Assembly (NCBI GenBank): GCA_017881265.1
Contig: JADGRA010000048.1
Span: 1 to 64,000, forward strand
Length of the DNA: 64,000 nt
Direction of reading: 5' to 3'
Source of the DNA: Myxococcaceae bacterium
GTDB taxonomy: Bacteria > Myxococcota > Myxococcia > Myxococcales > Myxococcaceae
The translations under genes and the position numbers were made by a program. Every line of letters begins with the position of its first letter. Positions within the stretch are counted from its first letter, which is position 1. Under the pieces are notes generated by a model. The model did not search any database, had not been told where the DNA came from, and saw only the letters and a program-made list of their open reading frames with translations. Below, piece by piece: positions 34,691-53,365 of the stretch.

Positions 34691-35125
34691 GGATGACCCC
34701 CGGGGTTGAAGGTGCGCCTAACTCATCGACGCGCGCCTCGCAAGGACAAGCAGGTTTCAGGCGATGTGCGAGGCTGCGTGCACCAGCCGGACAGACGCAA
34801 AGCGCTCAAGCGTTCCCTCAACGCATTGACTGCGGGAGATTTTTCGACAACGTCTCAGCGTCTCTCCCACGCCAATGGTACCCACCCACAATCCCTAGGG
34901 CGAAGGGGCCCCGCGCGTCGTCGCCGTTCGCGCTGCCCGCTTGCCCACAAGGCATTGGGACAACTTCTTTGCAGGGCCCACGAATCCGAAAGAACCGGAC
35001 GAGAGTCGACGGGGTCCGCAAGATTTTCGCACGGCCGAGACCCCCACACCCGACAAACTAGCGGCCGAGCAATTGCAGGGCCTCCGGCAGCCGTGAACAC
35101 TGGATGGCCCTCCGGAGGGGTCCAA
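34691..35125. other. Divergent promoter region of small cytochromes and the conduit operon (435 bp)
   Basis: No gene is supported. The frame of the decaheme gene stays open through part of it, but composition and the strong ribosome site at 35113 place the start at 35126. A weaker inverted repeat CGCAT-TGA-CTGCG lies at 34822-34834, and an imperfect GCAAGATTTTCGCA near 35018; both only loosely resemble the shared element. Confidence 0.45.
35113..35120 (+). promoter_or_regulatory. Ribosome-binding site deciding the decaheme start
   Basis: CGGAGGGG lies 5 bp before the ATG at 35126. It is the strongest such site in a frame that remains open for another 420 bp upstream, and the ATG it serves begins a proper lipoprotein signal peptide. 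Confidence 0.75.
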
Positions 35126-38095: not shown

Positions 38096-38497
38096 GTGTC
38101 ATCGCAACATCGGCCAGTGAGCGGACTGAGCCATCCATCCTTGTGGTCGAGAGGTCCGACGGGCCCCGGCCACAAGGAAACGGCCCTGAGGCTCAGTCCG
38201 CCCATGCTGGGAGGCGTCGTCGGACGTCGGCGTCTCGGTTCGCTGGGCCCGGAGGAGGCGTCAACCCCCGACGGGCCCAGCGGGCTTCCGGTTTCCGCAG
38301 GCACTCTCGTGACAGCTGAGGTAACCTCGGACGTCGAGTGGTCGCGGTCCAATGGCCAGTTCTTCACCGTGGGGGAGGAGACGGTGGTGACGGTGAAGCA
38401 CACCGACAGCTGGGGGGTACGCTCCACGCTGGGCCCGGTCCAGGCTAACGTCGCCGGACCGCGGCGGAGGCTTTCTCCGCCAGAAGGAATCCGGTGA
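38096..38497 (+). pseudogene. Remnant of a decaheme cytochrome N-terminal region
   Basis: This 133-codon frame has no signal peptide or heme motif. It contains SNGQFFTVGEETVVTVKHTDSWG, which aligns with NGQFFVPGEQLVVTVGFVNYCG near the N-terminus of paralogue A (3130-5871), followed by ...NVAGPRR where A has IVYGPRD. Short Gly-Pro stretches before it echo the collagen-like segment. It thus looks like a decayed fragment, cut off before any heme site, between the decaheme gene and the barrel gene. Its stop overlaps the next start (GTGATG), so read-through coupling may be why the frame persists. Confidence 0.6.
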
Positions 38498-39927
38498 TGC
38501 GTCGCCCCGAGGGTTGCGGCCGGCAGCGAGCGCCACGGGGCCGGGACGCGACGGGTGCGCGGCTTCATCGCCCCGTCGGGCTCGCGCTTGGCGCTCGCAG
38601 GCGAGGTGCGGCCGCCCTGGCGCTCCTGCTGACCGTCTGGGCGCCGGTGGCGGTGGCCCAGGTGACGGAGGCCAGTTCGACGACGGTCTTGCGCCTGGAG
38701 CCAGACTGGCGAACGACAGACGGGCGGGTGGGCTTGTGGGGCACGGAATACATTGGGCTCTCGGTGAGGGGGCTGGACATTCCCGGCGCCATCGAAGACC
38801 TCCGCTTTCAGCTGTCCGCCTGGGGAACGGCTGCCACCATCACCGGGACCCCGGAACAGCTGCTGACCGGCGACTTTGACCTGCTCTACATGCAAGGGTC
38901 GCTCTTTCACCGTCACCTGACCGTCACCGTGGGGAGGCAGCTCATCTCAGGCGGGGCGGCGCGGGTCCTCCAGCTGGATGGACTGAACGCCAACGTTGCC
39001 ATCGGGAAATACTTTGGAATCAGCGGCTTCGTGGGCCAGCCCGTGCAGGCACCCACCGTCTCTGGAGTGGGAGTCAACGCCTACGTGGCCGCCCCCACCG
39101 TGTCTCGCGGCGTGGTGCCGCTCGGGGATTTCGCCTTCGGGGGAAGGGCCTACTGGAGGCCATCCTACGGCACCGAGGTGGGCGTTTCCTTCCTCGACAT
39201 TCAGAACGGCAGCCAAGTGGCCCGCCAGGACCTAGGTGTCGATGCCCATGTCCTGATTCTGCCCAACCTGTCGCTCACCGCCTCGAGCATCCTGAGCCTG
39301 GTGGAGTTGCGCGTGGCGGATGGCCAGCTCGGCCTCTCCTGGCACATTCTCCCCACGCTCGAGCTCTTCGTGAACGGGATGCGAACGGAGCCGGACCTTT
39401 TCCTCTCACGCACCTCCATCTTCTCCGTGTTCGCCTACACCCAGCGGACCGCCGCGGGAGGAGGAGTCTTCTGGCAGGCACTCCCGCGCCTCTCGTTCTA
39501 TGGCGAGTACAACCAGCTGTGGGTGGACGGCGGAAGCGGCAATGAAGCCCTCCTGGGCATCACCTACAAGCTCGACCGCAAGTCGAGCGTGGGCTTGAAT
39601 GGCCATCTCCTCTACGTCCCGGTGAACGGCTATACCGAGCTGCGCGCCTGGGTTCTCGAGTCGTTGACGGACCGGATAAGGCTAAGCGCCGACCTGCAGT
39701 GGCAGTTGCTTGAGAACCTGTTCACCTACGCCGGAACTTCCATTCCTTACAACGCAACGCGGGATTCCATCGTCGGGACGGCCAGCGTGAGCTGGCTGAT
39801 TGGTTGCGGGTGGAGTGGCATGCTGAGCGGGTCCATCGGGACGACGCCCCTGAACCTGACGCGCTACACCGTGACGGCACGGGTGGGCTACAACTTCACG
39901 ACGTTCGACGCGGGAACCCCTCGATGA
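38497..39927 (+). CDS. Outer-membrane beta-barrel protein, probable conduit porin
   Basis: The product of about 476 residues has a long N-terminus ending in a signal peptide (AALALLLTVWAPVAVA-Q, residues about 39-54). A mature part rich in alternating hydrophobic strands follows: Gly, Tyr, Leu, Val, aromatic girdles, and a final strand ending near YNFTTF. I count about 16-20 likely strands. No MtrB-type CXXC is present. It overlaps the 13-heme cytochrome gene by 4 bp and follows the decaheme gene, so it best fits the porin sheath of a porin-cytochrome complex. Resemblance to OmbB/MtrB is by size and context, not recognised sequence. The ATG at 38497 has an AAGGA site; GTG 38494 is an alternative. 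Confidence 0.7.
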   Translation: MRRPEGCGRQRAPRGRDATGARLHRPVGLALGARRRGAAALALLLTVWAPVAVAQVTEASSTTVLRLEPDWRTTDGRVGLWGTEYIGLSVRGLDIPGAIEDLRFQLSAWGTAATITGTPEQLLTGDFDLLYMQGSLFHRHLTVTVGRQLISGGAARVLQLDGLNANVAIGKYFGISGFVGQPVQAPTVSGVGVNAYVAAPTVSRGVVPLGDFAFGGRAYWRPSYGTEVGVSFLDIQNGSQVARQDLGVDAHVLILPNLSLTASSILSLVELRVADGQLGLSWHILPTLELFVNGMRTEPDLFLSRTSIFSVFAYTQRTAAGGGVFWQALPRLSFYGEYNQLWVDGGSGNEALLGITYKLDRKSSVGLNGHLLYVPVNGYTELRAWVLESLTDRIRLSADLQWQLLENLFTYAGTSIPYNATRDSIVGTASVSWLIGCGWSGMLSGSIGTTPLNLTRYTVTARVGYNFTTFDAGTPR

Positions 39928-40988
39928 AGTGGCGACTCTTCGGCCCCCGCAGTCTGCTCGCGGCTTCGCTTCTCCTCGGCGCCGGAGTGGTCGTCGCACT
40001 GGACTCTGCGGACCACATCAATCCGAACCATGCCGGCCACGCCAAGTCGGGCGTGGAATGTCTCGCGTGCCACGAGCCCATCTTCGACGAGACGACGCTG
40101 GGACAGGTCTCAGCTTTCCCCAAGGAGGCCAAGTGCCTCTCCTGCCACAAGAAGCAGAAGGAAGAGGGCAACTGCGGGTTTTGTCACTCACGCCCGGACA
40201 AGCCGAGCACCTACGTGCTGTCGCCGCCGCACCTCAAGTTCAACCACGCCAAACACCTCGAGAAGGATGAGAACTGCGGGGTGTGCCACCTGATGCTTCC
40301 GGCAAAGGGCCAGTTGGCCAAGCCGGTGCCACCGATGAAGACGTGTCTCGGTTGCCACAACCACCAACAGCAGTACGCCAACGGCCAGTGCGACGTGTGT
40401 CACCGGGACCTGCTCAGCATCCCGCTCAAGCCCACGAGCCCCCCGTTCAGTCACCAGGCAAACTTCACGCGCGCCCACCCACCCATTGCCCGGGCGTCCG
40501 CGGCGTCCTGCACCCTGTGCCACCAGCAACGCTTCTGTGCGGACTGCCACGCTGCGATGACCGCTCCGATGAGGATTGAGGCGGTCAAGCCGGATGCCGT
40601 GGACAAGAATTTCATCCACTGGGGCGACTACTTGACGCGACACTCGGTCGAGGCGCGCGGGAACGAGTCGCGCTGCCAGACGTGCCACGTGGTCACCTTC
40701 TGCGAGCAGTGCCACCGTGCGGCGCAACTGACGCCGAACTCGGCCAACCCGCAAAACCCACACCCCGCCGGCTGGAACATGCCTGGCAGCTCGAGCTTCC
40801 ACGGAACGGCCGCGCGGCAGGACATCGTGAGTTGCGCCACCTGCCATGAGCAGGGGGCACAATCCAACTGTGTGACCTGCCACCGCGTGGGCGGGTCCGG
40901 GGGCGATCCGCATCCATCCGGCTGGACCAATCGCCACCCAGCGTCGGAGATTCATCACAACCCCATGTGTCTGGCGTGCCATCCGTGA
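39924..40988 (+). CDS. Periplasmic 13-heme cytochrome c of the conduit (MtrA-like role)
   Basis: The 354-residue protein begins with a signal peptide or anchor (MKWRLFGPRSLLAASLLLGAG) and then packs thirteen CXXCH motifs, one per about 25 residues: CLACH, CLSCH, CGFCH, CGVCH, CLGCH, CDVCH, CTLCH, CADCH, CQTCH, CEQCH, CATCH, CVTCH, CLACH. Many other histidines can serve as distal ligands. The gene starts inside the barrel gene's stop (ATGA). By position it should be the heme wire inside or below the barrel, equal in role to MtrA/OmaB, although MtrA has ten hemes. The last motif ends at the C-terminus, so the chain could reach one end of the molecule. Confidence 0.85.
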   Translation: MKWRLFGPRSLLAASLLLGAGVVVALDSADHINPNHAGHAKSGVECLACHEPIFDETTLGQVSAFPKEAKCLSCHKKQKEEGNCGFCHSRPDKPSTYVLSPPHLKFNHAKHLEKDENCGVCHLMLPAKGQLAKPVPPMKTCLGCHNHQQQYANGQCDVCHRDLLSIPLKPTSPPFSHQANFTRAHPPIARASAASCTLCHQQRFCADCHAAMTAPMRIEAVKPDAVDKNFIHWGDYLTRHSVEARGNESRCQTCHVVTFCEQCHRAAQLTPNSANPQNPHPAGWNMPGSSSFHGTAARQDIVSCATCHEQGAQSNCVTCHRVGGSGGDPHPSGWTNRHPASEIHHNPMCLACHP

Positions 40989-41371
40989 GAACCCCTCCGG
41001 GGACGGAAGTCCTCTAACGGACATCACCGGGGGTGCGTGTTCTCGCCCAAAGGCTTAGGGGCGCGCTCGCTCCGGTGGAGGGCTTGTGCGGGGGATGCCG
41101 CGAAAAAAATTCGGACCGGGTGGCGTTCGAGCAAATTTCGCGCGAGCCGCCATGAGCGCCGTTCCGTGGGGAACGAGGCTCGGTTTCGTCGGCCGCACGT
41201 TGGCCTCACGGGCCGCCCGTGCAAGCGCCACTGCTTCCTGCGGCTTGAAGCGAAGCCGCTCCGCGCGTTCAACCCCGCGAGACTACACCCCTGCATGCTG
41301 AGACGTGCCGAAGAACGAAGGTCCAGCGCAGGATGCTCTGCCTTGGCCCCTCTCTTGCTGAAGCCTCCAGC
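40989..41371. other. Intergenic region before the hyp operon (383 bp)
   Basis: No gene is supported. Small frames here lack ribosome sites and sensible composition. The region ends with a sigma-54-like element at 41344-41359. Near the start, CCCCTCCGGGG just after the 13-heme stop may form a small hairpin. Confidence 0.45.
41344..41359 (+). promoter_or_regulatory. Sigma-54-like -24/-12 element before hypF
   Basis: TGGCCC-CTCTC-TTGCT matches the consensus TGGCAC-N5-TTGCW at all but one position with correct spacing. If real, transcription would start near 41370, only two bases before the preferred hypF ATG at 41372, so the mRNA would be nearly leaderless. That makes the call tentative. It gains weight from a similar element before the hydrogenase structural genes. 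Confidence 0.35.
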
Positions 41372-43666
41372 ATGGGCCTCCAGGGTCGCCGCATCGAGGT
41401 GCTGGGGACGGTTCAGGGCGTCGGCTTTCGGCCCTGGATTTACCGAATCGCCCAGACCCTGGGCGTCCATGGCCAGGTACACAACGACACGTGTGGCGTC
41501 ACCATCGAGGCGTTCGGCAGCCAGGAGACGCTGGACCGTTTCCTTCAGCTCATCGAGGCCACGCCCCCGCCCGCGGCATCCATCCGGCGGATGAGCTGGA
41601 CCCCGATTCCGGCGCAAGACGTCCGGGCCTTCCGCATCACCGCCAGCCAGGCGAGCACGTCGCGCCAGTCTTCCATCCCGCCGGACCTTGGGACGTGCAT
41701 GGACTGCGTGGCGGAGATTTTCGACCCCGAGGACCGGCGCTACCGCTACCCGTTCACCAACTGCACCAATTGTGGCCCGCGGTTCACCATCGCGCTGGAC
41801 GTCCCCTACGACCGGCCGGCCACCTCCATGGCGCGCTTTCCGATGTGCGAGGCGTGTCAGCGGGAATACGAGGACCCGGGGAACCGGCGCTTCCACGCCC
41901 AGCCCAACGCCTGCCCGCGCTGTGGCCCGAGACTTCGCGTCCTTGACCCATCGGGCGACACGGTGGAAGCCCTGGACGCCGTCCGCTGGGCGGCCGAGGT
42001 CCTGGTGAAGGGCGCCCTGGTGGCGGTGAAGGGCCTCGGCGGCTTTCACCTTGCCTGCGATGCGACCTCGCGCGAGGCGGTGGCGGCGCTGCGGCTACGC
42101 AAGCGGCGGGACGCGAAGCCCTTCGCGGTCATGGTTCGGACGCTGGCCCAGGCCCAGCGGCTGGCCGAGTTGACGCCTGCAGAATGCGACTTGCTGCAGT
42201 CTGTCGAACGTCCCATCGTCCTGGCCCGGCGTGCAGCTGACTCGGGGCTGGCGGACGAGGTCGCTCCCCAGAATCCCCTGGTCGGGGTGATGCTGGCCTA
42301 CACGCCTCTGCACCACCTGCTGCTCGCGGATGCTGGACGACCCCTGGTGATGACGTCGGCGAACCTCTCGGATGAGCCAATTGCCTTCCGCGACACGGAC
42401 CTGGTCCGCCTCCGGGAGATGGCCGACTTCTTCCTCATCCACGACCGGGAGATTGTGACCCGGTGCGATGACTCGGTGGTCCGCATCATCGGCGGAGCGC
42501 CGGCGCTTCTCCGCCGGTCCCGCGGGTACGTGCCGCGGTCCGTGGGCCTGGCACGTGGAGTCGCCCGCCCGGTCCTGGCCTGTGGGGCGCAGCTGAAGAA
42601 CGCCTTCTGTCTGGCGTCCGGCGACTTGGCCGTCCTGGGCCCGCACGTGGGAGACCTGGATGACCCCGAGGTGCTCGTCTCCTACGGGGAAGCCATCGAG
42701 CGGATGGAGCGATTCTTGGGTGTCCGTCCCGAAGTCATCGCCCACGACTTGCACCCGGACTACGTCTCCACCGCTTACGCGCTGGCGCGTCCGGAGCGCA
42801 CCCGCGTGGCCGTCCAGCACCACCATGCGCACGTTGCGAGCGCGATGGCCGAACATGGCCTCACCGGCCCGGTGGTGGGCGTCGCCTTCGACGGCACCGG
42901 CTACGGCCCGGATGGCTCCGCCTGGGGTGGCGAGGTGCTGGTGGCCACCTTCAAGGACTTCGAGCGGCTGGCGACGTTGCGGCCCATCCGCCTGGCCGGC
43001 GGGGACCGCGCGATTCGCCAAGTCTGGCGAACGGCGCTGGCGCTCGTCGACGACGCCTTCGAGGGAAAGGCCCCGCTGGACGACATCCCGCTTTTCCAGG
43101 GCATTACCCAGCAGCGGCTGGAAGTCGTGCGCCGGATGGTCAGTGGGGACTTCAACGCGCCGCGGGCGCACGGGGCGGGCCGCTACTTCGACGCGCTGGG
43201 GGCCCTGGGCCTCGGACTCCAGGAAGCCAGGTACGAGGGCGAGGTCGCGCTGGCCTGGAACCTGGTGGCCGACCCTGGCGAGACAAAGGCCTACGGCTAC
43301 CACCTGGACCGGACGACGGAACCCTGGTGCCTGGACTTGCGAGCCATGGTCCGGGAGGCGGTGGCGGATGTCATCGCCGGCGTCCCCGCCGCGCGCATCT
43401 CCGCGGCGTTCCACAACACGCTGGTGCAGGCGACGGCGGCCATGGTGCGAGCGGTGCTGGCCATCCGCGGACCTCTCCCCGTCGTCCTCACCGGGGGGTG
43501 CTTTCAGAACCCGCGTCTCGCCGAGGGCGTCTGCGCGGCCCTCGGGCCAGATGTCGATGTCCGGCTCCAGCGTCTCGTTCCAGCGGGCGATGGCGGCATC
43601 GCCCTTGGCCAGGCGCTGGTGGCCGATGCGGTTTCGCGTGCGACAACCGAAGAACCAGGAGGGTGA
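41372..43666 (+). CDS. hypF: Carbamoyltransferase HypF, [NiFe]-hydrogenase maturation
   Basis: The product of about 764 residues has the full HypF layout. An acylphosphatase domain starts with EVLGTVQGVGFRPWIYR; two zinc-finger pairs follow (CMDC...CTNCGPRF and CEAC...CPRCGPRL). A YrdC-like domain has AVKGLGGFHLACDA, and the Kae1-like domain has VQHHHAHVASAMAEHG and VAFDGTGYGPDG. HypF uses carbamoyl phosphate and ATP to carbamoylate the C-terminal cysteine of HypE, the source of the cyanide ligands. The start is taken at the ATG just before the acylphosphatase domain; an ATG at 41333 adds 13 residues. It is first of the operon hypF-C-D-E-ech-A. Confidence 0.95.
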   Translation: MGLQGRRIEVLGTVQGVGFRPWIYRIAQTLGVHGQVHNDTCGVTIEAFGSQETLDRFLQLIEATPPPAASIRRMSWTPIPAQDVRAFRITASQASTSRQSSIPPDLGTCMDCVAEIFDPEDRRYRYPFTNCTNCGPRFTIALDVPYDRPATSMARFPMCEACQREYEDPGNRRFHAQPNACPRCGPRLRVLDPSGDTVEALDAVRWAAEVLVKGALVAVKGLGGFHLACDATSREAVAALRLRKRRDAKPFAVMVRTLAQAQRLAELTPAECDLLQSVERPIVLARRAADSGLADEVAPQNPLVGVMLAYTPLHHLLLADAGRPLVMTSANLSDEPIAFRDTDLVRLREMADFFLIHDREIVTRCDDSVVRIIGGAPALLRRSRGYVPRSVGLARGVARPVLACGAQLKNAFCLASGDLAVLGPHVGDLDDPEVLVSYGEAIERMERFLGVRPEVIAHDLHPDYVSTAYALARPERTRVAVQHHHAHVASAMAEHGLTGPVVGVAFDGTGYGPDGSAWGGEVLVATFKDFERLATLRPIRLAGGDRAIRQVWRTALALVDDAFEGKAPLDDIPLFQGITQQRLEVVRRMVSGDFNAPRAHGAGRYFDALGALGLGLQEARYEGEVALAWNLVADPGETKAYGYHLDRTTEPWCLDLRAMVREAVADVIAGVPAARISAAFHNTLVQATAAMVRAVLAIRGPLPVVLTGGCFQNPRLAEGVCAALGPDVDVRLQRLVPAGDGGIALGQALVADAVSRATTEEPGG

Positions 43667-43670
43667 AGCG

Positions 43671-43982
43671 ATGTGTCTTGGCGTTCCGGGCAAGGTGTTG
43701 GAAGTGGATGGGCTGGTGGCCAGCGTCGACTTCTGGGGCGTGCGCAAGCAGGTCCGTCTCGACGTGGTGGACGCGCCGGTGGCGCCAGGGGACTACGTCC
43801 TCAACCACGTGGGCTTCGCCATCCGCCGCATTCCGGCCGAGGAAGGCCTGGCGACGCTCAAGCTCTACCATGACCTTTTGCGCAAGCAGGGGGAGGAGGA
43901 CGACCTGATGGCGGCCGACGTCCGCGCCGAAATCGAGGCGGCCGGACCCGGATGGTGGAGAGATTGTGACAAGCCCCTCTGA
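43671..43982 (+). CDS. hypC: HypC-type hydrogenase maturation chaperone
   Basis: The 103-residue protein begins MCLGVPGKV, the HypC signature; Cys2 becomes the N-terminal ligand that holds the Fe(CN)2CO unit. A small barrel core (VASVDFWGVRKQVRLDVVDAPVAPGDYVLNHVGFAIRRI) follows. It is longer than typical HypC (about 75-90 residues) because of an extra helical tail ending in WWRDCDKPL. A strong AGGAGG site precedes the ATG. Its 3' end overlaps hypD by 17 bp. With HypD it forms the scaffold for the iron centre. Confidence 0.95.
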   Translation: MCLGVPGKVLEVDGLVASVDFWGVRKQVRLDVVDAPVAPGDYVLNHVGFAIRRIPAEEGLATLKLYHDLLRKQGEEDDLMAADVRAEIEAAGPGWWRDCDKPL

Positions 43983-45120
43983 ACGAGATGCGCTGCAGCT
44001 GAAGTTCCGGGACCCGGAACGTGGGAAGGCGCTCGTCGAGAAGCTCGCGCACCTGACGGAGTCGTTGGGTCGCTCGCCAGTGGCAGTGATGCACGTCTGT
44101 GGGAGCCACGAGCAGGCCATTGCCCGCTTCGGACTCCGGCACGTCTTCCCCAAGGCGCTGGACGTCATCATGGGGCCCGGCTGCCCGGTCTGCATCACCG
44201 ACGTCCCCGAAGTGGACGAGGGGGTCGCCCTGGCCCAGCAGGGCGTCCGCGTCGCCACCTACGGCGACATGCTGAAGGTGCCGGGCTCCGCCGGCTCCCT
44301 GGCCGACGCCCGCGCTGGCGGCGCGAAGGTGGACATCGTCTACAGCGTCTCCCAGGCGGTCGAGCTGGCACAAAAGACGAACGAGGAAATCGTCTTCTTC
44401 GCCACCGGCTTCGAGACCACCGCGGTGGCCACCGCAGCAGAAATCCTCCGAGGGCCGCCGCCCAACTTCTCCGTGCTGTCAGCTCACAAGTACATCCCAC
44501 CGGTGATGGAGATTGTGGCCGAGATGCCGGACACCCGCGTGGAAGGCTTTCTCGCCGCCGGGCACGCTGCCACCATCACCGGCTGGGGCGTCTTCGAGGC
44601 CTTCGTCGAGCGCCACCACCTGCCCGTGGTGGTGGCGGGGTTTGAACCGCTGGACGTCCTCGCTGGCCTGGTTCGCCTGGTGGAGCTCATCCACGACAAG
44701 ACGCCCAAGGTGGACAACATGTACCCGCGGTGCGTCAGCCGGGAGGGGAACGTCGTCGCGCAGCAGCAGCTGTGGCAGGTGTTTCGCCCGCTGGGTGGTC
44801 GCTGGCGCGGCATCGCGCACGTCCCCAACGGCAACCTTCGCCTGCGCGACGAGTGGGCACACCTCGACGCGCGGCGGCGCTTTCACATCGACCTGGCCAG
44901 ACTCTGGACGTTCGCGCCACCCACCCTGGTGCAGCACTGCATCTGCGGCGACATCATGGCCGGCCTGAAGTCCCCGACCGACTGTTCCCTCTTCGGCAAG
45001 GAATGCCTGCCCGACACGCCGGTCGGCGCCTGCATGGTGAGCAGCGAGGGCACCTGCAAAATCTGGCACCAGTACGGCGGGCATCCCGAGTTGACCCGGG
45101 CGGTCGAGGTGAATCCGTGA
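43966..45120 (+). CDS. hypD: HypD, iron-scaffold hydrogenase maturation protein
   Basis: The 384-residue HypD has the conserved cysteine motifs HVCGSHE near residue 43 and GPGCPVC near 71, and a C-terminal Fe-S binding set (HCICGDIMAGLKSPTDCSLFGKECLPDTPVGACMVSSEGTC). The central GFETTAVATA motif matches. It works with HypC to assemble the Fe(CN)2CO unit before delivery to the large subunit. Its GTG start lies inside hypC and its stop overlaps hypE, showing tight coupling. Confidence 0.96.
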   Translation: MTSPSERDALQLKFRDPERGKALVEKLAHLTESLGRSPVAVMHVCGSHEQAIARFGLRHVFPKALDVIMGPGCPVCITDVPEVDEGVALAQQGVRVATYGDMLKVPGSAGSLADARAGGAKVDIVYSVSQAVELAQKTNEEIVFFATGFETTAVATAAEILRGPPPNFSVLSAHKYIPPVMEIVAEMPDTRVEGFLAAGHAATITGWGVFEAFVERHHLPVVVAGFEPLDVLAGLVRLVELIHDKTPKVDNMYPRCVSREGNVVAQQQLWQVFRPLGGRWRGIAHVPNGNLRLRDEWAHLDARRRFHIDLARLWTFAPPTLVQHCICGDIMAGLKSPTDCSLFGKECLPDTPVGACMVSSEGTCKIWHQYGGHPELTRAVEVNP

Positions 45121-46151
45121 AGCTGCAACTGCCCATCGGCGAGCGCATCAGCCTCAAGCACGGAGCCGGGGGCCGCGCGATGCGCGCCCTCATCGAACAG
45201 GTCTTCCTCGAAGGGGTCGACGCCCCGCTGCAAGGCATCGGGCTGGCCGCCATGGACGACGGCGCAGCCATCCCGGTCGGCGAGCGCTGGCTGGTGCTCA
45301 CCACGGATTCGCACGTCATCCATCCCCTCTTCTTCCCCGGGGGGGACATCGGACGGCTGTCCGTGGCGGGGACGGTGAACGACCTGGCGATGATGGGCGC
45401 GACGGAGCCGCTCGCGCTGACATGCTCGGTCATCCTCGAGGACGGCTTCCCCTCGGCGGACCTGCTGCGCATCCAGAAGTCCATCCTCGCCACCTCGCGC
45501 GAGGCGCACGCGCCGATTGTGACCGGCGACACCAAGGTGATGGGGCGCGGCGAGATTGACGGCCTTGTCCTCAACACGGCAGGCGTCGCTTTCACCAACC
45601 GGGTGGTGCCCGACTGCGGGCTCCGGATTGGAGACCGCATCATCGTGACCGGAACCATGGGAGACCATGGCTTCGCGGTCCTCGCCGTCCGGCACAAGCT
45701 GGCCCTGGAGGGAGAGCTGCAGTCCGACGTGGCTCCCATCAACGAGATGATTCGCGGCGCCCTGGCGGCGGGCGGCCAGGACGTGGTGGCGATGAAGGAC
45801 CCCACCCGGGGCGGTCTGGCGAGTGCGCTGCACGAGATGGCCGAGAAGAGCGGTGTGGGGGTCCTGCTGTACCAGGACCGCATTCCGCTGAGCGACCCGG
45901 TGCGCGCCGCGGCAGAGCTCCTCGGCATTGACCCGTTGCACGTGGCCAACGAGGGCAAGGCCGTCCTGGGGGTGCGCCCGGAGGCGGCGGAGCGCGTCCT
46001 GGCGGCACTCCACGCTCACCCGCTGGGACGGAACGCGGCCATCGTCGGGACCTGCATGGGGGAACACCTCGGCCGCATCATCCTGGACACGGGGCTGGGG
46101 CGCCGGCTGTTGACCGAGCCCGAGGGCGAGCCGCTGCCGCGCATCTGCTGA
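45117..46151 (+). CDS. hypE: HypE, cyanide-ligand-forming maturation protein
   Basis: The 344-residue product is a PurM/AIR-synthase-like ATPase. It starts LKHGAGGRAMRALIEQVF, has MDDGAAIP and GDTKVMGRGEIDG, and the conserved KDPTRGGLASALHEMA. It ends in the diagnostic PRIC, whose Cys344 is carbamoylated by HypF and dehydrated to thiocyanate. The GTG start is inside the hypD stop. The next gene is an enoyl-CoA-hydratase-like protein rather than hypA, an unusual order. Confidence 0.96.
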   Translation: MKLQLPIGERISLKHGAGGRAMRALIEQVFLEGVDAPLQGIGLAAMDDGAAIPVGERWLVLTTDSHVIHPLFFPGGDIGRLSVAGTVNDLAMMGATEPLALTCSVILEDGFPSADLLRIQKSILATSREAHAPIVTGDTKVMGRGEIDGLVLNTAGVAFTNRVVPDCGLRIGDRIIVTGTMGDHGFAVLAVRHKLALEGELQSDVAPINEMIRGALAAGGQDVVAMKDPTRGGLASALHEMAEKSGVGVLLYQDRIPLSDPVRAAAELLGIDPLHVANEGKAVLGVRPEAAERVLAALHAHPLGRNAAIVGTCMGEHLGRIILDTGLGRRLLTEPEGEPLPRIC

Positions 46152-46162
46152 GGAGACGTCCC

Positions 46163-46996
46163 ATGAAGCACATCCGCATTGAGGTGGACGCCGGCGTGGG
46201 AGTCCTCACCATCGACCGGCCGGACCGTTTCAACTCGCTGGACGTGGAGACGGCACAGGACCTTCGCAAGGCCGGCCTCCAGCTGGCCCGGGACCCCCTG
46301 GTGCGGGCGGTCGTGCTGCGGGGCGTCCCTGGCATCTTCTGCAGCGGGGCAGACTTGAAGTTCATTCGAGCCGGCGGGGAGGCGGCCCACCTGCAGTACC
46401 TGACGCCCTCCGCGCGCAACGTGCCGTCCGGGTACGGCGAGGTCTTCAAGCAAATCCTCGAGTACCTGCACAGCACCATCTCGGAGATTCGTCGCGCGGC
46501 GAAGCCTTTCGTGGCCGCGGTGGACGGCGCGTGTGCCGCCGGCGGGTTTGGACTCGCGATGGCGTGCGACCTGGTCTTCGCCTCGGAGCGCGCCACCTTC
46601 GAGTGGGCGTATGCCAAGACGGGGCTGAGTGGCGCGGAGAGCTCGACGTTCTTCCTTCCCAAGCTGGTGGGCCTGCGCTTCGCGATGGACATGCTGCTGC
46701 TCAACCCGCGTCTGGACGCGAAGGCGGCGCACCAGGCGCGGCTGGTGAGCGGCGTGCTCCCCACGGAGGGATTCGACGCGGAGGTTCTGTCCATCGCCAA
46801 GCGCCTGGCCGCTGGCCCCACGCGGGCCTACGGCATGGCGAAGGCCCTCTTCAACGAGGCAGCGGGGGTAGACCGGCTGGACTACCACCTGGACCGCGAG
46901 TTGGAAAACCTGGTCCGAAGCGCCGACGGGCCCGAGTTCAAGGAAGGCATCGACGCCTTCTTCGCCAAGCGCACGCCGCGCTTTCCGGGGCTTTGA
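46163..46996 (+). CDS. Enoyl-CoA hydratase/isomerase-family protein in the hyp operon
   Basis: The 277-residue crotonase-fold protein has the oxyanion-hole segments GIFCSGADLKF (near residue 57) and VDGACAAGGFGLAMACD (near 117), then AYAKTGLSGAESSTFFLPKLVG. In that last segment the usual Asp/Gly of GLSPDGG is replaced by Ala/Glu. It lies between hypE and hypA, 11 bp after hypE and 3 bp before hypA, so it is almost certainly cotranscribed. HypX/HoxX proteins, which make the CO ligand from formyl-tetrahydrofolate through formyl-CoA, carry a crotonase-fold C-terminal domain. This could be that half standing alone, or an unrelated CoA enzyme. No formyltransferase half is present here. Confidence 0.75.
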   Translation: MKHIRIEVDAGVGVLTIDRPDRFNSLDVETAQDLRKAGLQLARDPLVRAVVLRGVPGIFCSGADLKFIRAGGEAAHLQYLTPSARNVPSGYGEVFKQILEYLHSTISEIRRAAKPFVAAVDGACAAGGFGLAMACDLVFASERATFEWAYAKTGLSGAESSTFFLPKLVGLRFAMDMLLLNPRLDAKAAHQARLVSGVLPTEGFDAEVLSIAKRLAAGPTRAYGMAKALFNEAAGVDRLDYHLDRELENLVRSADGPEFKEGIDAFFAKRTPRFPGL

Positions 46997-46999
46997 CCC

Positions 47000-47392
47000 A
47001 TGCATGAGTACTCACTGGTGCAGGGACTCTTCGACGAAGTCGCCGCGCAGGCGGCGGCCCGCGGCGCGACGGCGGTGCGCAAGGTGACGGTGGGCCTGGG
47101 AGAACTGGCGGGCGTCGACCCGGAGCTGTTCGCCACCGCCTTCATGACCTTCCGTCCGGCAAGCCCCTACCCCGACGCGGAGCTGTCCTTACGGCTGGTA
47201 GAAGCTGTGTGGGTGTGCGCCGGGTGTGCGGCCCCCTTCCAGCGGGGCGCCGTGCTGCGCTGTCAGGCGTGCGGCGCACCCGGACGCCTTGCCGCCGGCG
47301 ATGAGCTCATCCTCGAGCGCATCGAGATGGAAGTGCCCGAGCCGCATGCTTTGCGCCCAGAGAGTACCGAGCGCGCACACACTGGCGACTGA
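47000..47392 (+). CDS. hypA: HypA-type nickel metallochaperone
   Basis: The 130-residue protein begins MHEYSLVQGLF; His2 is part of the nickel site. The zinc ribbon is CAGCAAPF...CQACG near residues 74-97. It is slightly longer than usual (about 113-118) at the C-terminus. It delivers nickel, with HypB, to the large subunit. It ends the first maturation operon; the partner hypB is 4.6 kb downstream after the structural genes. Confidence 0.93.
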   Translation: MHEYSLVQGLFDEVAAQAAARGATAVRKVTVGLGELAGVDPELFATAFMTFRPASPYPDAELSLRLVEAVWVCAGCAAPFQRGAVLRCQACGAPGRLAAGDELILERIEMEVPEPHALRPESTERAHTGD

Positions 47393-47509: not shown

Positions 47510-48661
47510 ATGAGCACTGGTGAGGGTTGGCTAATTGGAGAGTTGAAGCGGCGCGGCGTGAGCCGACGTGAATTCGTCCTCTTCTGCGCCGGGATTGCGG
47601 GCACGTTTGCCCTGCCAGGCTCCGCGGCGACGAAGATTGCCGCGGCTCTCAGCAAGACAAAGAAGCCCATCCTCGTCTGGCTGGAATTCCAGGATTGCTG
47701 CGGGAACACCGAGTCGTTCCTGCGCGCCAGTGCCCCCACCGTCGGCGAAGTCATCCTCGACACGCTCTCGCTCGACTACCACGAGACCATCATGGCGGCG
47801 GCGGGCACGCAGGCCGAGGAGGCGCTGCAGAACGTCGTCAAGACCCACAAGGGCGAGTACCTCGCGGTCGTCGAAGGCTCCATCCCGACGGGAGCGGGCG
47901 GCGCGTACTGCACCATCGGTGGGAAGTCGGCGTTGTCCATCGCCCGGGAAGTGTGCGGCGGGGCGGCGGCCACCATCGCCATGGGCACCTGCGCCACCTA
48001 CGGCGGTCTTCCGGCTGCGGCGCCCAACCCCACCGGCGCGCTGGGCGTGGCGGACGCGGTGCCGGGCGTGAAGAACCTCATCAACCTGTCGGCCTGCCCG
48101 GCCAACGCCGCCAACATGGTGGCGCTCATCGCCTACTACCTCACTTTCAAGCGCTGGCCGCCAGTGGATGGGGTGGGCCGGCCGCTGTTCGCCTACGGTC
48201 AGAGCATCCACGACGCGTGCGAGCGACGCGCCCACTTCGACGCTGGACAGTACGTCGAGGCCTGGGGCGACGAAGCGCACCGTAACGGCTATTGCCTCTT
48301 CAAAATGGGGTGCAAGGGCCCTGTCACCCACCAGAATTGCCCCAACATCCGCTGGAATGAAGGGACGAACTGGCCCATCGGCTGTGGCCACCCGTGCATC
48401 GGCTGCGCGGAGCCGGACTTCTGGGACAAGATGACGCCCTTCTACCAGCACCTGCCCAACGTGGCCGGCTTCGGCGTCTCCGAGAGCATCGACAAGGTCG
48501 GGGTGTGGCTGGCAGCCGGCACGGCCGTCGCGTTCGGTGCCCACACCGTGGGGAAGATGGTCCAGCACCGGCTGGCAACCCGCGAGGGGCCAGACACGGA
48601 GCTGCCCGCGCCACCGAGTCCGCCCAGTAAACAGCCGCCCAAGACCGGGGGAATGCCATGA
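47510..48661 (+). CDS. [NiFe]-hydrogenase small subunit, membrane-bound uptake type
   Basis: The 383-residue group 1-like small subunit has a Tat signal (SRREFVLFC, residues 18-26) and a C-terminal membrane helix near 330-348. The distal cluster is His234, Cys237, Cys262, Cys268; the medial one Cys277, Cys296, Cys299. The proximal site is unusual: FQDCCGNTES (61-69) has Asn66 where the fourth-ligand cysteine normally lies, with Asp62, Cys63 and Cys64 before it; Cys161 and Cys196 are present. The extra cysteines of O2-tolerant HyaA-type enzymes (C19, C120 in HyaA) are absent. An Asp-ligated cluster is known in the actinobacterial-type hydrogenase of Ralstonia. It overlaps the large-subunit gene by 4 bp. 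Confidence 0.94.
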   Translation: MSTGEGWLIGELKRRGVSRREFVLFCAGIAGTFALPGSAATKIAAALSKTKKPILVWLEFQDCCGNTESFLRASAPTVGEVILDTLSLDYHETIMAAAGTQAEEALQNVVKTHKGEYLAVVEGSIPTGAGGAYCTIGGKSALSIAREVCGGAAATIAMGTCATYGGLPAAAPNPTGALGVADAVPGVKNLINLSACPANAANMVALIAYYLTFKRWPPVDGVGRPLFAYGQSIHDACERRAHFDAGQYVEAWGDEAHRNGYCLFKMGCKGPVTHQNCPNIRWNEGTNWPIGCGHPCIGCAEPDFWDKMTPFYQHLPNVAGFGVSESIDKVGVWLAAGTAVAFGAHTVGKMVQHRLATREGPDTELPAPPSPPSKQPPKTGGMP

Positions 48662-50367
48662 CGCACGTGGTGGTGGATCCAGTTACGCGCATCGAAGGCC
48701 ACCTCCGGATTGAGGCGGAAGTGGACGGCGGCCAGGTGAAGGACGCCTGGTCATCCTCCACGATGTTTCGCGGCATCGAGTTGATTCTCAAGGGCCGCGA
48801 CCCGCGGGATGCCTGGGCCTTCACCCAGCGCATCTGCGGCGTCTGCACGACGGTGCACGCCATCGCGTCCATCCGCGCGGTGGAGAACGCCATCGGCGCA
48901 ACGCCGCCGCCCAACGCGCGCATCCTCCGGACGCTCATCAACGCGGCCCAGTGCATCCAGGACCACGTCATTCACTTCTACCACCTGCACGCGCTGGACT
49001 GGGTGGACGTGGTCTCCGCCCTGTCGGCGGACCCGGCAAAGACCTCCAGCCTGGCGCAGTCCATCTCGGACTGGCCGCTGTCGAGCACGCAGTACTTCAC
49101 CGGCGTGAAGACACGCTTGAAGGACTTCGTCGACCGCGGGCAACTCGGGCCGTTCGCCAACGCCTACTGGGGCCATCCGGCGTACAAGCTTCCGCCCGAG
49201 GCCAACCTCATGGCGGTGGCGCACTACCTGGAGGCCCTGGACTGGCAGCGCGAGTTCATCAAAATCCACGCCATCCTCGGCGGAAAGAATCCCCACCTAC
49301 AGTCGTTCCTGGTGGGCGGCATGGCCACCCCGGTGGACCCGAACAGCCAGTCGTCGCTGAACATCGGGACCATCTCAAACCTCCGCGCCCTCGCCGCGAA
49401 GGGCCAGGACTTCGTCAAGCGCGTGTACCTGCCCGACGTGCTCGCCATCGCGGGCTTCTACAAGGAGTGGGCGGGCATCGGCGCCGGCGTGGGCAACTAC
49501 ATGACGTACGGCTCCTACCCGGAGAACGACGCGCCCAACCCGCCCATGTTCCTGCCGGCCGGCATCATCATGAAACAGGACATTGGAAAGGTCCTGGCGC
49601 TCGACCCGTCCCGCATCAGCGAGTCGGTGAAGCATGCCTGGTACGACTACAGCGGCGGCGACGACAAGGCGCTCCACCCCTCGCAGGGGGAGACCCTGCC
49701 CCACTACACCGGCCCGCAGCCTCCGTACGAGAGGCTGGACCTCGCCCAGAAGTACAGCTGGCTCAAGTCGCCACGCTATGGCGGCGACGCGATGGAGGTC
49801 GGCCCGCTGGCCCGCATGCTGGTGGCCTATGCCTCGGGCCAACCGCGCGTCAAGGAACTGGTGGGCGTGGCCCTGGGCAGTCTGAAGGTTGGACCCGAAG
49901 CCCTCTTCTCGACGCTCGGCCGGGTGGCCGCGCGCTGCATCGAGACAGTCCTCCTCGCCGAGAAGATGGACGGGTGGATTGACGAGCTGGCGGCCAACAT
50001 GGGGTCCGGCGACTACCGCATCCAGGACAACGCCAAGTGGGACCCAAAGAGCTGGCCGAAGGATTGCTTCGGCGCCGGGTACCACGAGGCGCCCCGCGGC
50101 GCCCTCGGTCACTGGGTCCACATCAAGGATGGCATCATCGTCAACTACCAGTGCGTCGTCCCCAGCACCTGGAACGCTGGGCCGAGAGACGTCGCAGGCA
50201 AACGCGGGCCCTACGAGGCCTCGCTGCTCGGCACGCCGGTGGCCAAGCCGGAGCAGCCGCTGGAGATTCTGCGGACGGTGCACTCCTTCGACCCGTGCAT
50301 GGCCTGCGGCGTCCACGTCGTGGACGTCCACAAGCGCGAGCTGGCGCACGTGAGGGGGGGGCCGTGA
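48658..50367 (+). CDS. [NiFe]-hydrogenase large subunit
   Basis: The 569-residue catalytic subunit carries RICGVC (Cys60, Cys63) and DPCMACGVH (Cys547, Cys550), which ligate the NiFe site. The maturation protease should cut after His553, releasing a 16-residue tail. The N-terminal VDPVTRIEGHL is the standard family start. It oxidises H2 with the small subunit on the periplasmic face and sends electrons to the cytochrome b partner and quinone. It overlaps both neighbours by 4 bp (ATGA at the start, GTGA at the end). Confidence 0.96.
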   Translation: MTHVVVDPVTRIEGHLRIEAEVDGGQVKDAWSSSTMFRGIELILKGRDPRDAWAFTQRICGVCTTVHAIASIRAVENAIGATPPPNARILRTLINAAQCIQDHVIHFYHLHALDWVDVVSALSADPAKTSSLAQSISDWPLSSTQYFTGVKTRLKDFVDRGQLGPFANAYWGHPAYKLPPEANLMAVAHYLEALDWQREFIKIHAILGGKNPHLQSFLVGGMATPVDPNSQSSLNIGTISNLRALAAKGQDFVKRVYLPDVLAIAGFYKEWAGIGAGVGNYMTYGSYPENDAPNPPMFLPAGIIMKQDIGKVLALDPSRISESVKHAWYDYSGGDDKALHPSQGETLPHYTGPQPPYERLDLAQKYSWLKSPRYGGDAMEVGPLARMLVAYASGQPRVKELVGVALGSLKVGPEALFSTLGRVAARCIETVLLAEKMDGWIDELAANMGSGDYRIQDNAKWDPKSWPKDCFGAGYHEAPRGALGHWVHIKDGIIVNYQCVVPSTWNAGPRDVAGKRGPYEASLLGTPVAKPEQPLEILRTVHSFDPCMACGVHVVDVHKRELAHVRGGP

Positions 50368-51128
50368 GTACCGCTGGCGCTTACAGGCGCTGGCACCACC
50401 ACGAGGAAGAGCCCCGCGTCCGCGTCTACGTCTGGGACGCCGTCGTTCGCTCGGTGCACTGGCTCCTTGCAGGCGCGATTGTCGTCCTCGCCGTCACCGG
50501 GCTCTACATAGGCCATCCCTACGGGGGCTCGGTGGGACCGGCAAGCCCCCACTTTCTGATGGGGTGGATGAAGACCGTCCACTTCTACGCCGCCATCGTC
50601 TTCACCATCTCCTTCGCTGCGCGGGTGCTGTGGTTCTTCATCGGTCCGAAGCAGGCCTCCTGGCGCCAGTTCATTCCGACGACGAGGGCGCGCTGGGCCA
50701 ACTTAACCAGGACCCTGCGCTTCTACTTATTGCTCTCCGTGGAGACCCCCGGCGCGGTGGCCCACAACGCGGTGGCCGGTCTGGCCTACACCGCGGTCTT
50801 CCTCCTCTACGTGGTGATGATTGTCACTGGGTTTGCGCTCTACGGCGCGAGTGCCAACGTGGGCTCGTTCATGTACCTCTTCCACGGTTTGTGGCCATGG
50901 GTGGGAGGCCTACAGACGGCCCGGCTCATTCACCACGTGGTGATGTGGCTCCTCCTCGCTTTCGTCATTCACCATCTTTACAGCGCCCTTCTGACTTCGA
51001 AACAGGAACGGAACGGCGAGCTCGACTCCATCTTCTCAGGCAACAAGTTCCTATCCCGCGAGGAAATTGACTCGGGGAGGGACGACTTCGGCCCCCGAAA
51101 GAGTGCGCCAACCCATGTCCGGACGTGA
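50364..51128 (+). CDS. Ni/Fe-hydrogenase b-type cytochrome subunit
   Basis: The 254-residue integral membrane protein has four main hydrophobic segments. Likely heme b ligands include His in SVHWLLAG (near residue 32), KTVHFYAAI, and the paired RLIHHVVMW/VIHHLYSALL motifs near the C-terminal half. This is the HyaC/HupC family that anchors the hydrogenase and reduces quinone. The GTG start overlaps the large-subunit stop. The tail LSREEIDSGRDDFG is soluble. It overlaps hupD by 14 bp. Confidence 0.93.
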   Translation: MSTAGAYRRWHHHEEEPRVRVYVWDAVVRSVHWLLAGAIVVLAVTGLYIGHPYGGSVGPASPHFLMGWMKTVHFYAAIVFTISFAARVLWFFIGPKQASWRQFIPTTRARWANLTRTLRFYLLLSVETPGAVAHNAVAGLAYTAVFLLYVVMIVTGFALYGASANVGSFMYLFHGLWPWVGGLQTARLIHHVVMWLLLAFVIHHLYSALLTSKQERNGELDSIFSGNKFLSREEIDSGRDDFGPRKSAPTHVRT

Positions 51129-51684
51129 CCCTTTGCTCGTGCTCGGCCTCGGCAACCTCCTCTGCCAGGACGACGGCGTCGGGGTGGCCGCTGTCGGCTG
51201 GCTTCACCGCCACTACACGCCGGCACCGGGCGTCCGTGTCCTCGACGGGGGAACCCTCGGCCTGGCGCTACTTCCCACCCTGGAAACCGCGGACACGGTG
51301 CTCATCATCGACGCCATCCGCTCGGACGGCCCCCCTGGCAGCTTCGTCCGGCTGGAGGGGGAGGACGTCGCGCACGCCGCGGAGCACCGGCTCTCGGTGC
51401 ACCAGGTGGGGGTGAGTGACCTGCTCGGGGCGGCGCGCTGGCAGGGAAGCCTCCCCGCGCGCCTACTCCTACTCGGCCTGGTCCCGCAGTCCATGGAGCT
51501 GGGCGTGGAGCGAACACCGGCGGTGGCAGCCGCCCTGCCGGCCCTCGTCGACCGGGTGGTGGCCGAGTGCGCCGCCCTCGGGTACCCGTTCACACCGAGG
51601 CTGTCGGATGAGACATCCAGCGACTTTGGCCCTCTGGGTGACAACTTCCATCGCCTGTTCGGCCTGCCTGGCGAAGTGCGGTGA
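51115..51684 (+). CDS. hupD: Hydrogenase maturation endopeptidase (HupD/HyaD family)
   Basis: The 189-residue protein starts LVLGLGNLLCQDDGVGV, where the Asp after CQD and the Glu/Asp positions form the nickel-sensing site of HyaD/HycI proteases. IIDAIRS and SVHQVGVSDLL supply the second Asp and the conserved His. The final 20-30 residues (YPFTPRLSDETSSDF...) are an unusual tail, and the next gene starts within them. It trims the large subunit after nickel insertion. Confidence 0.93.
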   Translation: MSGRDPLLVLGLGNLLCQDDGVGVAAVGWLHRHYTPAPGVRVLDGGTLGLALLPTLETADTVLIIDAIRSDGPPGSFVRLEGEDVAHAAEHRLSVHQVGVSDLLGAARWQGSLPARLLLLGLVPQSMELGVERTPAVAAALPALVDRVVAECAALGYPFTPRLSDETSSDFGPLGDNFHRLFGLPGEVR

Positions 51685-52012
51685 GGACGCTCGGGCCACC
51701 GAGTCCGTTCCCTGGGACCGGATTCGTTCGGCCGAGGCACGCAGTCGCGGCAAGGCGCTCTTCGTTCAGAACTGCGTCCTGTGCCATGGCGAGCACGCCG
51801 ACGGCCGCGGCGTCCGCAGCATCGGACTGGACCGCAAGCCAGCCGACTTCTCCAACGCGCAGTGGAACAGCCCCGCCGGAGCGGCCCGGGCCTACCACGC
51901 CATCCGCGAGGGCGTCGCCGGCAGTCCGATGCCTTCCTGGAGCTCGCTCTCGGAAGCAGAAAGCTGGGACCTGGTTGCCTACCTCGTCTCGGTGAGTACC
52001 CAAGGCCCCTAA
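51608..52012 (+). CDS. Small monoheme cytochrome c in the hydrogenase operon
   Basis: From the ATG at 51608 the product is 134 residues with one heme motif, CVLCHGEH, and a C-terminal AESWDLVAYLVSVST helix, as in cytochrome c class I. The N-terminal part contains WVTTSIACSACLAKCGED, a poor signal peptide whose last Cys could be a lipid anchor. A GTG 10 codons downstream is an alternative start. The gene overlaps hupD by about 77 bp in another frame, unusual for this compact operon. It may carry electrons between the hydrogenase and the cytochrome chain. Confidence 0.65.
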   Translation: MRHPATLALWVTTSIACSACLAKCGEDARATESVPWDRIRSAEARSRGKALFVQNCVLCHGEHADGRGVRSIGLDRKPADFSNAQWNSPAGAARAYHAIREGVAGSPMPSWSSLSEAESWDLVAYLVSVSTQGP

Positions 52013-52026
52013 AGAGGAAACGACGA

Positions 52027-52779
52027 ATGTGCGAGTCATGCGGATGCGGGGATGAAGCGCTGGTGCCGGTGGAGGTACAGCACCGCATTCTCGCTGTGAA
52101 CGACCAGACAGCTCGCCACACCCGCAGCCACTTCGAGGAGCTCGGCGTGCTGGCGTTGAACCTCATGGGCTCTCCAGGCTCCGGCAAGACGGCGTTGCTG
52201 GAGGCGACGGCGCGCCTGGCCAAGGGTCGGCTCCGCCTGGGGGCCCTGAGCGGAGACCTGGCCACCGACCGCGACGCGGCGCGACTCCGGGCCGCCGGCA
52301 TCCCGGCCCTGGAAATCACCACCGGTTCCGCCTGCCACCTGGACGCGGAGCTGGTGCACCGCGCCCTCCATGACTTCCCGTGGAAGGAACTCGACCTGCT
52401 AGTCATCGAGAACGTGGGCAATCTGGTGTGTCCGGCCGTCTACGACCTGGGGCAGGCCGCCAACGTGGTGGCCCTCAGCGTGACGGAGGGGGAGGACAAG
52501 CCCCTCAAGTACCCCGTCATGTTCCGCAAGGCGGACCTGGTCCTTGTCACCAAAATCGACTTGCTCCCGCACCTACCAGACATCCGGCTGGAAGCGATTG
52601 CGGATTCCCTCTCACGAGTCATGCCGTCCCCGGTGATGCTGCCCGTCTCCGCCCGGACAGGCGAGGGGATGGGCGCCTGGCTGGACTGGCTCGCGGCGCG
52701 ACGCGCCTCCACCCACCCAAGCGAGAGCCACGCAGCCGCGACGGCACACTCCCATGCCCGGGTTCCCTCGCACAGCTGA
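52027..52779 (+). CDS. hypB: HypB, GTP-dependent nickel insertion protein
   Basis: The 250-residue GTPase begins MCESCGCGDE (N-terminal metal-binding CxxCGC). P-loop GSPGSGKTALLE lies near residue 48, the SGDLATDRDAARL and ENVGNLVCPAVYDLG motifs follow, and the guanine-specificity segment is TKIDLLPH. It lacks a long His-rich stretch but ends with a mild His-containing tail (ESHAAATAHSHARVPSHS) that might store nickel weakly. It completes the hyp set (A, B, C, D, E, F). It starts 14 bp after the small cytochrome gene. Confidence 0.95.
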   Translation: MCESCGCGDEALVPVEVQHRILAVNDQTARHTRSHFEELGVLALNLMGSPGSGKTALLEATARLAKGRLRLGALSGDLATDRDAARLRAAGIPALEITTGSACHLDAELVHRALHDFPWKELDLLVIENVGNLVCPAVYDLGQAANVVALSVTEGEDKPLKYPVMFRKADLVLVTKIDLLPHLPDIRLEAIADSLSRVMPSPVMLPVSARTGEGMGAWLDWLAARRASTHPSESHAAATAHSHARVPSHS

Positions 52780-52912: not shown

Positions 52913-53365
52913 ATGGAGCTGACTGCCACTCAAATCCGCAAGCTCATCCTCGACGAGCATGCCGTCCTGCGAGATGAGCTGCAGGACATCGCGACGCTCC
53001 TGCAGGACGTCACCGCCAAGCGGGCGCAGGCTGCCGAGCGGCTGCGGCACCGGATGAAGACCTTCTCCGAGGCGTTCCTCAAGCACATCGCCCACGAGGA
53101 CAGCTTGCTCCGGCCGGTGCTGGCCAACATCGACGCCTGGGGCGCGGTACGCGTGGAGAAGATGGACGACGAGCACCGGGAACAGCGCTCCACCATCGCA
53201 GCCCTGACCTCGCTTGAGATGGCGAGTGACCTCGAGGGCTACCTCGCCCGCATCCGCGCCTTCGTGCTGGCCATCTCGGCCGACATGGAAGCCGAGGAGC
53301 ACGAGTGTCTCAGCCCGGACATTCTCCGCGACGACACCATCGTCATCGACTACTTCACCGGGTAG
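52913..53365 (+). CDS. Hemerythrin-like HHE domain protein
   Basis: The 150-residue protein is a four-helix bundle with carboxylate/His iron ligands: His16 in LDEHAVLRDEL, His58/His61 in KHIAHEDSLLRP, His83 in MDDEHREQRS, and His125 with Glu122 in EAEEHECLSPD. A GGAGG ribosome site precedes the ATG. Hemerythrins bind O2 or nitric oxide and often protect anaerobic machinery. It converges on nuoN with an 11-bp overlap at the 3' ends and stands apart from the hydrogenase genes, 133 bp after hypB. Confidence 0.85.
   Translation: MELTATQIRKLILDEHAVLRDELQDIATLLQDVTAKRAQAAERLRHRMKTFSEAFLKHIAHEDSLLRPVLANIDAWGAVRVEKMDDEHREQRSTIAALTSLEMASDLEGYLARIRAFVLAISADMEAEEHECLSPDILRDDTIVIDYFTG

Follow-up and report, generated by a model that had tools for sequence, protein, structure and literature searches.

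A carbon monoxide ligand is needed by every nickel-iron hydrogenase, and a gene found among the maturation genes of one such enzyme raises the question of whether a lone crotonase may help to supply it. The gene lies in a stretch of 64,000 nucleotides (hereafter the window: positions 1 to 64,000, forward strand, of contig JADGRA010000048.1, assembly GCA_017881265.1) from a bacterium of the family Myxococcaceae, and an earlier note on this DNA had seen in it either a split HypX or a new source of the CO ligand. Judging from sequences and operons, we consider it probable that the product works on its own as a formyl-CoA decarbonylase that supplies the CO ligand, corresponding to the C-terminal half of the HypX protein.

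The crotonase gene, its operon and its relatives

The gene of the proposed decarbonylase (46163..46996, forward strand) is an open reading frame with an ATG start that encodes 277 amino acids, and its product has been found to match only ECH families in Pfam (ECH_1, 157.9 bits). It starts 11 bp after the end of hypE (46151) and its stop lies 3 bp before the start of hypA (47000); the close packing of an enoyl-CoA-hydratase-like gene between these two genes, as described in the earlier note, has thus been confirmed by the ORF coordinates and by Pfam. The run of genes, all on the forward strand, is hypF (41333..43666, the longest ORF, with a start that is not settled), hypC (43671..43982, worked out from the ORF end; 103 aa beginning with MCLGVP), hypD (43966..45120), hypE (45117..46151, its start inferred to be a GTG that overlaps the hypD stop), the crotonase gene and hypA (47000..47392). 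On the 3' side of hypA, and on the same strand, follow the small (47510..48661) and large (48658..50367) [NiFe]-hydrogenase subunits, a cytochrome b561-type subunit (starting inside the ORF 50037..51128), a hydrogenase maturation protease (51067..51684), a small cytochrome c-like ORF and hypB (starting inside the ORF 51781..52779). Pfam confirms hypF, hypC, hypD, hypE, hypA, both hydrogenase subunits, the cytochrome b and the protease, while NCBIfam confirms hypB and, again, the two subunits. The source genome (4.4 Mb, 81 contigs, 95.7% complete) holds 12 ECH_1 matches, and the window crotonase is the one within the hyp operon.

Two further observations concern the surroundings of the operon. 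Directly 5' of it (34706-40988), a multihaem cytochrome lipoprotein, an outer-membrane barrel-like ORF and a c7-like multihaem cytochrome were read by eye, the c7-like match coming from NCBIfam, and together they look like an extracellular electron conduit adjoining the hydrogenase. After hypB (52913-53365), a small ORF with a weak NCBIfam match to an iron-sulfur repair di-iron protein model likely codes for a hemerythrin-like protein.

The window crotonase belongs to a family. A scan of GTDB contigs returned five relatives (62-78% identity). In the genome of the window and 59 related ones, 60 in all, the window gene and five others at 66-78% identity stood apart from next best matches of 39%. 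A family profile built from seven rows and run with a cut-off of 1e-70 on two phylum samples found members in 7 of the 193 genomes sampled from the window's phylum and in 8 of the 199 from the second phylum; all matches had E values of 4.8e-137 or below, with nothing between this value and the cut-off. Taking the samples, one further genome (G026) and the GTDB matches together, 19 distinct genomes carry a member, nine from Myxococcota and ten from Acidobacteriota (phylum names inferred). These members were found by sequence and not by context, and hyp genes flank the crotonase in 19 of 19 loci; therefore, its placement in hyp operons is not due to chance. In 16 loci hypE lies upstream of the crotonase, with or without an intervening formyltransferase gene, and in the other three (L114, L115, and L116) the order is hypC–hypD–formyltransferase–crotonase–hypE. 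A separate rearrangement is seen in a Myxococcota locus (L109:1309-5941), ordered hypF–hypC–hypE–crotonase–hypD–hypA–hypB, where hypD has shifted behind the crotonase. The large subunits at the family loci share 49-80% identity with that of the window, a diversity which indicates that the crotonase is linked to maturation and not to one hydrogenase. A further recurrent operon partner was sought by an all-against-all ORF comparison of the 12 loci that have no adjacent formyltransferase, and only hyp and hydrogenase genes, apparent reading-frame shadows and a few pairs common to two loci were recovered.

The slot after hypE is also that of fused hypX genes. In fact, on pHG1 of C. necator the hypX start lies 11 bp after hypE, and hypX follows hypE in Bradyrhizobium and Rhizobium plasmids as well; within the two phyla, four of five HypX loci have it directly after hypE, and for the fifth (L121) the short stretch available gave no match to a hyp gene. 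The window gene is nevertheless not filed as HypX, because the fused formyltransferase that defines HypX is absent: HypX/HoxX has 597 aa and the window crotonase is a single domain of 277 aa, with only 28-34% identity between HypX and the family in the domain that they share. No HypX was found in the window's genome, where the best match (18 bits) covers the formyltransferase half only, and full-length HypX was found neither in the 12 genome entries (11 distinct genomes) carrying the crotonase nor in any of the 15 genomes with a family member in the samples of the two phyla. In seven of those 12 entries the best crotonase match to HypX is the hyp crotonase, and in five it is another crotonase. 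A reading of the gene as HypX itself was accordingly rejected.

HypX is rare in both samples (3 of 193 and 2 of 199 genomes), and HypD was found in 69 of 193 Myxococcota and 94 of 199 Acidobacteriota genomes, including all 15 with the crotonase and all five with HypX. The absence of any genome with both HypX and the hyp crotonase is not significant, because few genomes carry either. Most hyp-positive genomes have neither (59 of 69 in Myxococcota, 84 of 94 in Acidobacteriota), so hydrogenases presumably mature there without either protein. Three side observations were made during these searches. Among the Pfam HypD matches, the proteins of the crotonase genomes lie towards the lower end (about 1e-72 to 1e-135, one gene being partial) and those of HypX genomes near 1e-150; there may be two types of HypD. 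HypX-like genes occur on plasmids of Acaryochloris, Mycetohabitans and Nocardia (L192, L193, L198, and L199) with no hyp genes annotated within a few kb. Finally, hypX is annotated as two genes in Sulfurovum mangrovi and on a Mesorhizobium huakuii plasmid (L194:3001-4618; L195:3001-4632), apparently because the reading frames are broken and not because the gene is truly split.

Active-site residues and descent

A study of A. aeolicus HypX (Muraki et al., 2019; PMC6802093) gives Tyr416 and Glu426 (Tyr439 and Glu449 in R. eutropha, that is, C. necator) as candidates for the decarbonylating base, describes R. eutropha mutants at Tyr439 or Glu449 as having a HypX-minus phenotype, and places Ala392 at "a neck of a bottle" near the cysteamine of the folded CoA. 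In the window crotonase, Tyr150 (codon 46610..46612), Glu159 (46637..46639) and Ala126 (46538..46540), all read on the forward strand, align with these three residues, the alanine by way of C. necator Ala415. Ordinary enoyl-CoA hydratases work with two catalytic glutamates (144 and 164 in rat numbering). This pair is absent from the window crotonase, which has Tyr150 where PaaF, CaiD and other hydratase-type rows have a glutamate, and no glutamate within the G127-GFGLAM stretch.

In a joint alignment, the tyrosine and the glutamate are both present in 19 of 19 family members and 11 of 11 HypX proteins and in none of 50 other crotonases; the tyrosine alone occurs in two of the 50 and the glutamate in none. 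The control crotonases are not a random sample: they were picked as the best matches to HypX or to the window protein (five belong to the genome of the window), and 5 enzymes of E. coli and 2 rows from plasmids were added to these. The two residues are spaced by nine residues in the family and in three HypX proteins (Embleya, Acaryochloris, and Mycetohabitans), and by one residue more in the other HypX proteins. When shared columns were defined as those with the same residue at least 90% conserved in the family and in HypX and at most 10% elsewhere, four were found (I98/I387, A126/A415, Y150/Y439, and E159/E449, window and C. necator numbering); two control crotonase clades had 0 and 1 such columns in common with HypX, and none with the family. 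The GLSGAES segment noticed earlier is present as G154-L-S-G-A-E-S160. Its description as a replacement of the usual GLSPDGG has to be loosened, because GLxPDGG occurs in some crotonases (rows L196, L032, and L005) and is merely one type among several.

In overall sequence the family is closest to PaaG-type crotonases (epoxyphenylacetyl-CoA isomerase; oxepin-CoA hydrolase, alternative type), and this closeness is a ground for supposing that the hyp operon took in an ordinary PaaG-like acyl-CoA hydratase or isomerase, which would act on a different CoA ester and not be involved in making CO. The nearest NCBIfam model, 'oxepin-CoA hydrolase, alternative type', agrees with it, albeit at 172.7 bits against a cut-off of 300. 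Among the best 25 of 70 matches no NCBIfam model exceeds its cut-off, and a named degradation enzyme was therefore rejected as the identity of the gene. PaaG-type enzymes, moreover, have an aspartate at the column of Ala158, the glutamate of the window crotonase standing one column on, and a phenylalanine in place of Tyr150, and the family is further set apart from them by its presence in hyp operons at all 19 loci. We regard such a capture as improbable, given the hyp linkage across two phyla, the tyrosine in the glutamate column of ordinary hydratases together with an acid at the HypX position, the formyltransferase partner in 7 of the 19 genomes and the lack of a model above cut-off among the best 25 NCBIfam matches.

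Phylogenies have been inferred with two samplings. The first (54 of 64 rows, near-copies being left out) separated the family together with the HypX C-domains from the other crotonases, with an SH-aLRT of 99 when all columns were used and with 99/99 when the motif columns were removed (51 rows, three long-branch rows also being out). The wider sampling (67 of 80 rows), to which 16 crotonases that are HypX's own best matches were added, joined the two with 100/100 using all columns. Without the motif columns, the free search set HypX on a long branch apart from the family, although the tree with the two joined is 4.6 lnL better, a margin that does not decide between the trees (p-AU 0.683). The earlier note had named placement within ordinary fatty-acid or benzoate enzymes as a refutation; with all columns the protein does not fall among ordinary enzymes, and the motif-free trees of the wider sampling speak neither way. 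Common descent of the family and the HypX C-domain is favoured, though not settled once the motif columns are removed.

Profiles point in two directions. With a HypX C-domain profile, 18 of the 19 family members rank above all 34 other crotonases; with the family profile, PaaG-like crotonases reach up to 187 bits and HypX 31-62 bits, which is to be expected if HypX evolved fast, and no less so if the family arose from a PaaG-like enzyme by acquiring the pair. A masked ranking put 12 of 19 members above all others, 10 of the 16 added control crotonases being fragments there. HypX was not among the best 50 Foldseek matches, which list ordinary crotonases, of an AlphaFold model of the crotonase that is itself modest (pLDDT 63, below 50 in the motif region).

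The likeness to HypX might alternatively be convergent, two crotonases having reached the Tyr/Glu pair independently in the service of one reaction or of two similar ones. This possibility concerns descent and overlaps with the decarbonylase reading; the motif-free free tree and the long HypX branch would fit it. The all-column trees, the higher likelihood of the joined motif-free tree and the two further rare columns shared outside the motif (I98 and A126) speak for common descent instead, and we hold convergence to be rather unlikely.

Formyltransferase neighbours and the origin of formyl-CoA

In 7 of the 10 Acidobacteriota loci (L007, L010, and L112-L116), a gene for a protein of 210-276 aa stands directly upstream of the crotonase. 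Formyl_trans_N exceeds its Pfam cut-off in all five of these seven proteins that were scanned, and N120, H122 and D166 are invariant across the alignment of the seven; this Asn-His-Asp set we take to be the triad of PurN. In L007 and L112 the stop of the formyltransferase gene overlaps the crotonase start by 4 bp (ATGA). The closest solved chains are PurN, as is the closest NCBIfam model in the three formyltransferases scanned, with 51-75 bits against a PurN cut-off of 150. The partner thus shares the domain and the triad with PurN, but lies far under the PurN cut-off and has an extra conserved C-terminal stretch, and its genomes have stronger Formyl_trans_N matches elsewhere. Its structure model is poor (pLDDT 48.8). 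The N-domain of HypX, on the other hand, is closest to Fmt and formyl-tetrahydrofolate dehydrogenase, and 'split' therefore need not mean that a HypX gene was cut in two. This difference between the formyltransferases also counts in favour of the convergent origin considered above. The adjacent genes of these seven Acidobacteriota suggest a split HypX in a two-gene version with a different formyltransferase.

This partner formyltransferase with its intact triad is absent from all nine Myxococcota and from three of the ten Acidobacteriota among the family genomes. A profile of the partner, run over all 19 genomes, found it in the seven, and ten of the others gave only matches of PurN or Fmt scale. 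The remaining two (G194 and G227) have weaker relatives beside another HypC, which were rejected as partners because the Asn and Asp of the triad are lost. As a side observation, in two Acidobacteriota genomes (L152:7573-8708; L153:2883-4015) a second formyltransferase-like gene, which has lost the triad Asn and Asp, follows a HypC-like gene, with CBS-domain-like and radical-SAM-like ORFs near (names given by eye).

The genome of the window has exactly two Formyl_trans_N matches, which, judging by score and best-matching profile, we take for purN and fmt, and a genome search found no formyltransferase gene beside the crotonase. The earlier proposal to look for a separate formyltransferase elsewhere has yielded only these PurN- and Fmt-like genes, and for this reason the window crotonase is an orphan half and not a demonstrated split HypX. 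From the earlier alternative of a split HypX or a new CO source, what has stood is the operon slot, the Tyr/Glu pair and the formyltransferase next to the gene in most Acidobacteriota loci; the formyltransferase half in the window's own genome has not.

Proposed function and its meaning

The stand-alone hyp crotonase is probably a variant of HypX that works like its second half, with which it shares the fold, the Tyr/Glu pair, the alanine at the CoA neck and the slot directly after hypE. In the proposed mechanism, the crotonase would bind formyl-CoA, Tyr150 and Glu159 would serve as a general-base pair, as has been proposed for HypX, and CO would be released next to the HypC–HypD scaffold to supply the Fe(CN)2CO group of the hydrogenase. 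The formyl-CoA of many Acidobacteriota would be made from 10-formyl-tetrahydrofolate by the adjacent PurN-type formyltransferase; that of the window's lineage would have a different origin, possibly a housekeeping formyltransferase.

A different role within a formyl route has been considered, in which the crotonase releases no CO and, for example, binds formyl-CoA or channels it to HypC–HypD, HypD itself being the decarbonylase. A 2025 review reports an enoyl-CoA-hydratase motif in HypD and suggests that HypD might decarbonylate (PMC12134894), and the crotonase gene is always found with hypD or hypE, as such a role would have it. The HypX Tyr/Glu pair, however, is invariant in the whole family, which fits catalysis by the crotonase, and we judge the channelling role very improbable.

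The decarbonylase reading can be extended, tentatively, to a modular CO pathway, in which a stand-alone decarbonylase would use formyl-CoA from any source in the cell. A PurN-type formyltransferase would then have been recruited in Acidobacteriota independently of HypX, and Myxococcota would draw on a non-dedicated source; we hold this extension to be possible, though less likely than not.

Searches of an open-access full-text library turned up no description of a stand-alone hyp crotonase (subscription papers and preprints being outside this scope). With the family, two large soil phyla offer a named gene, named residues and a named partner for experiments, and split proteins would allow the two reactions of HypX to be studied separately. 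Finally, if the modular pathway is true, its shared-pool chemistry could bear on the source of CO in organisms without HypX.
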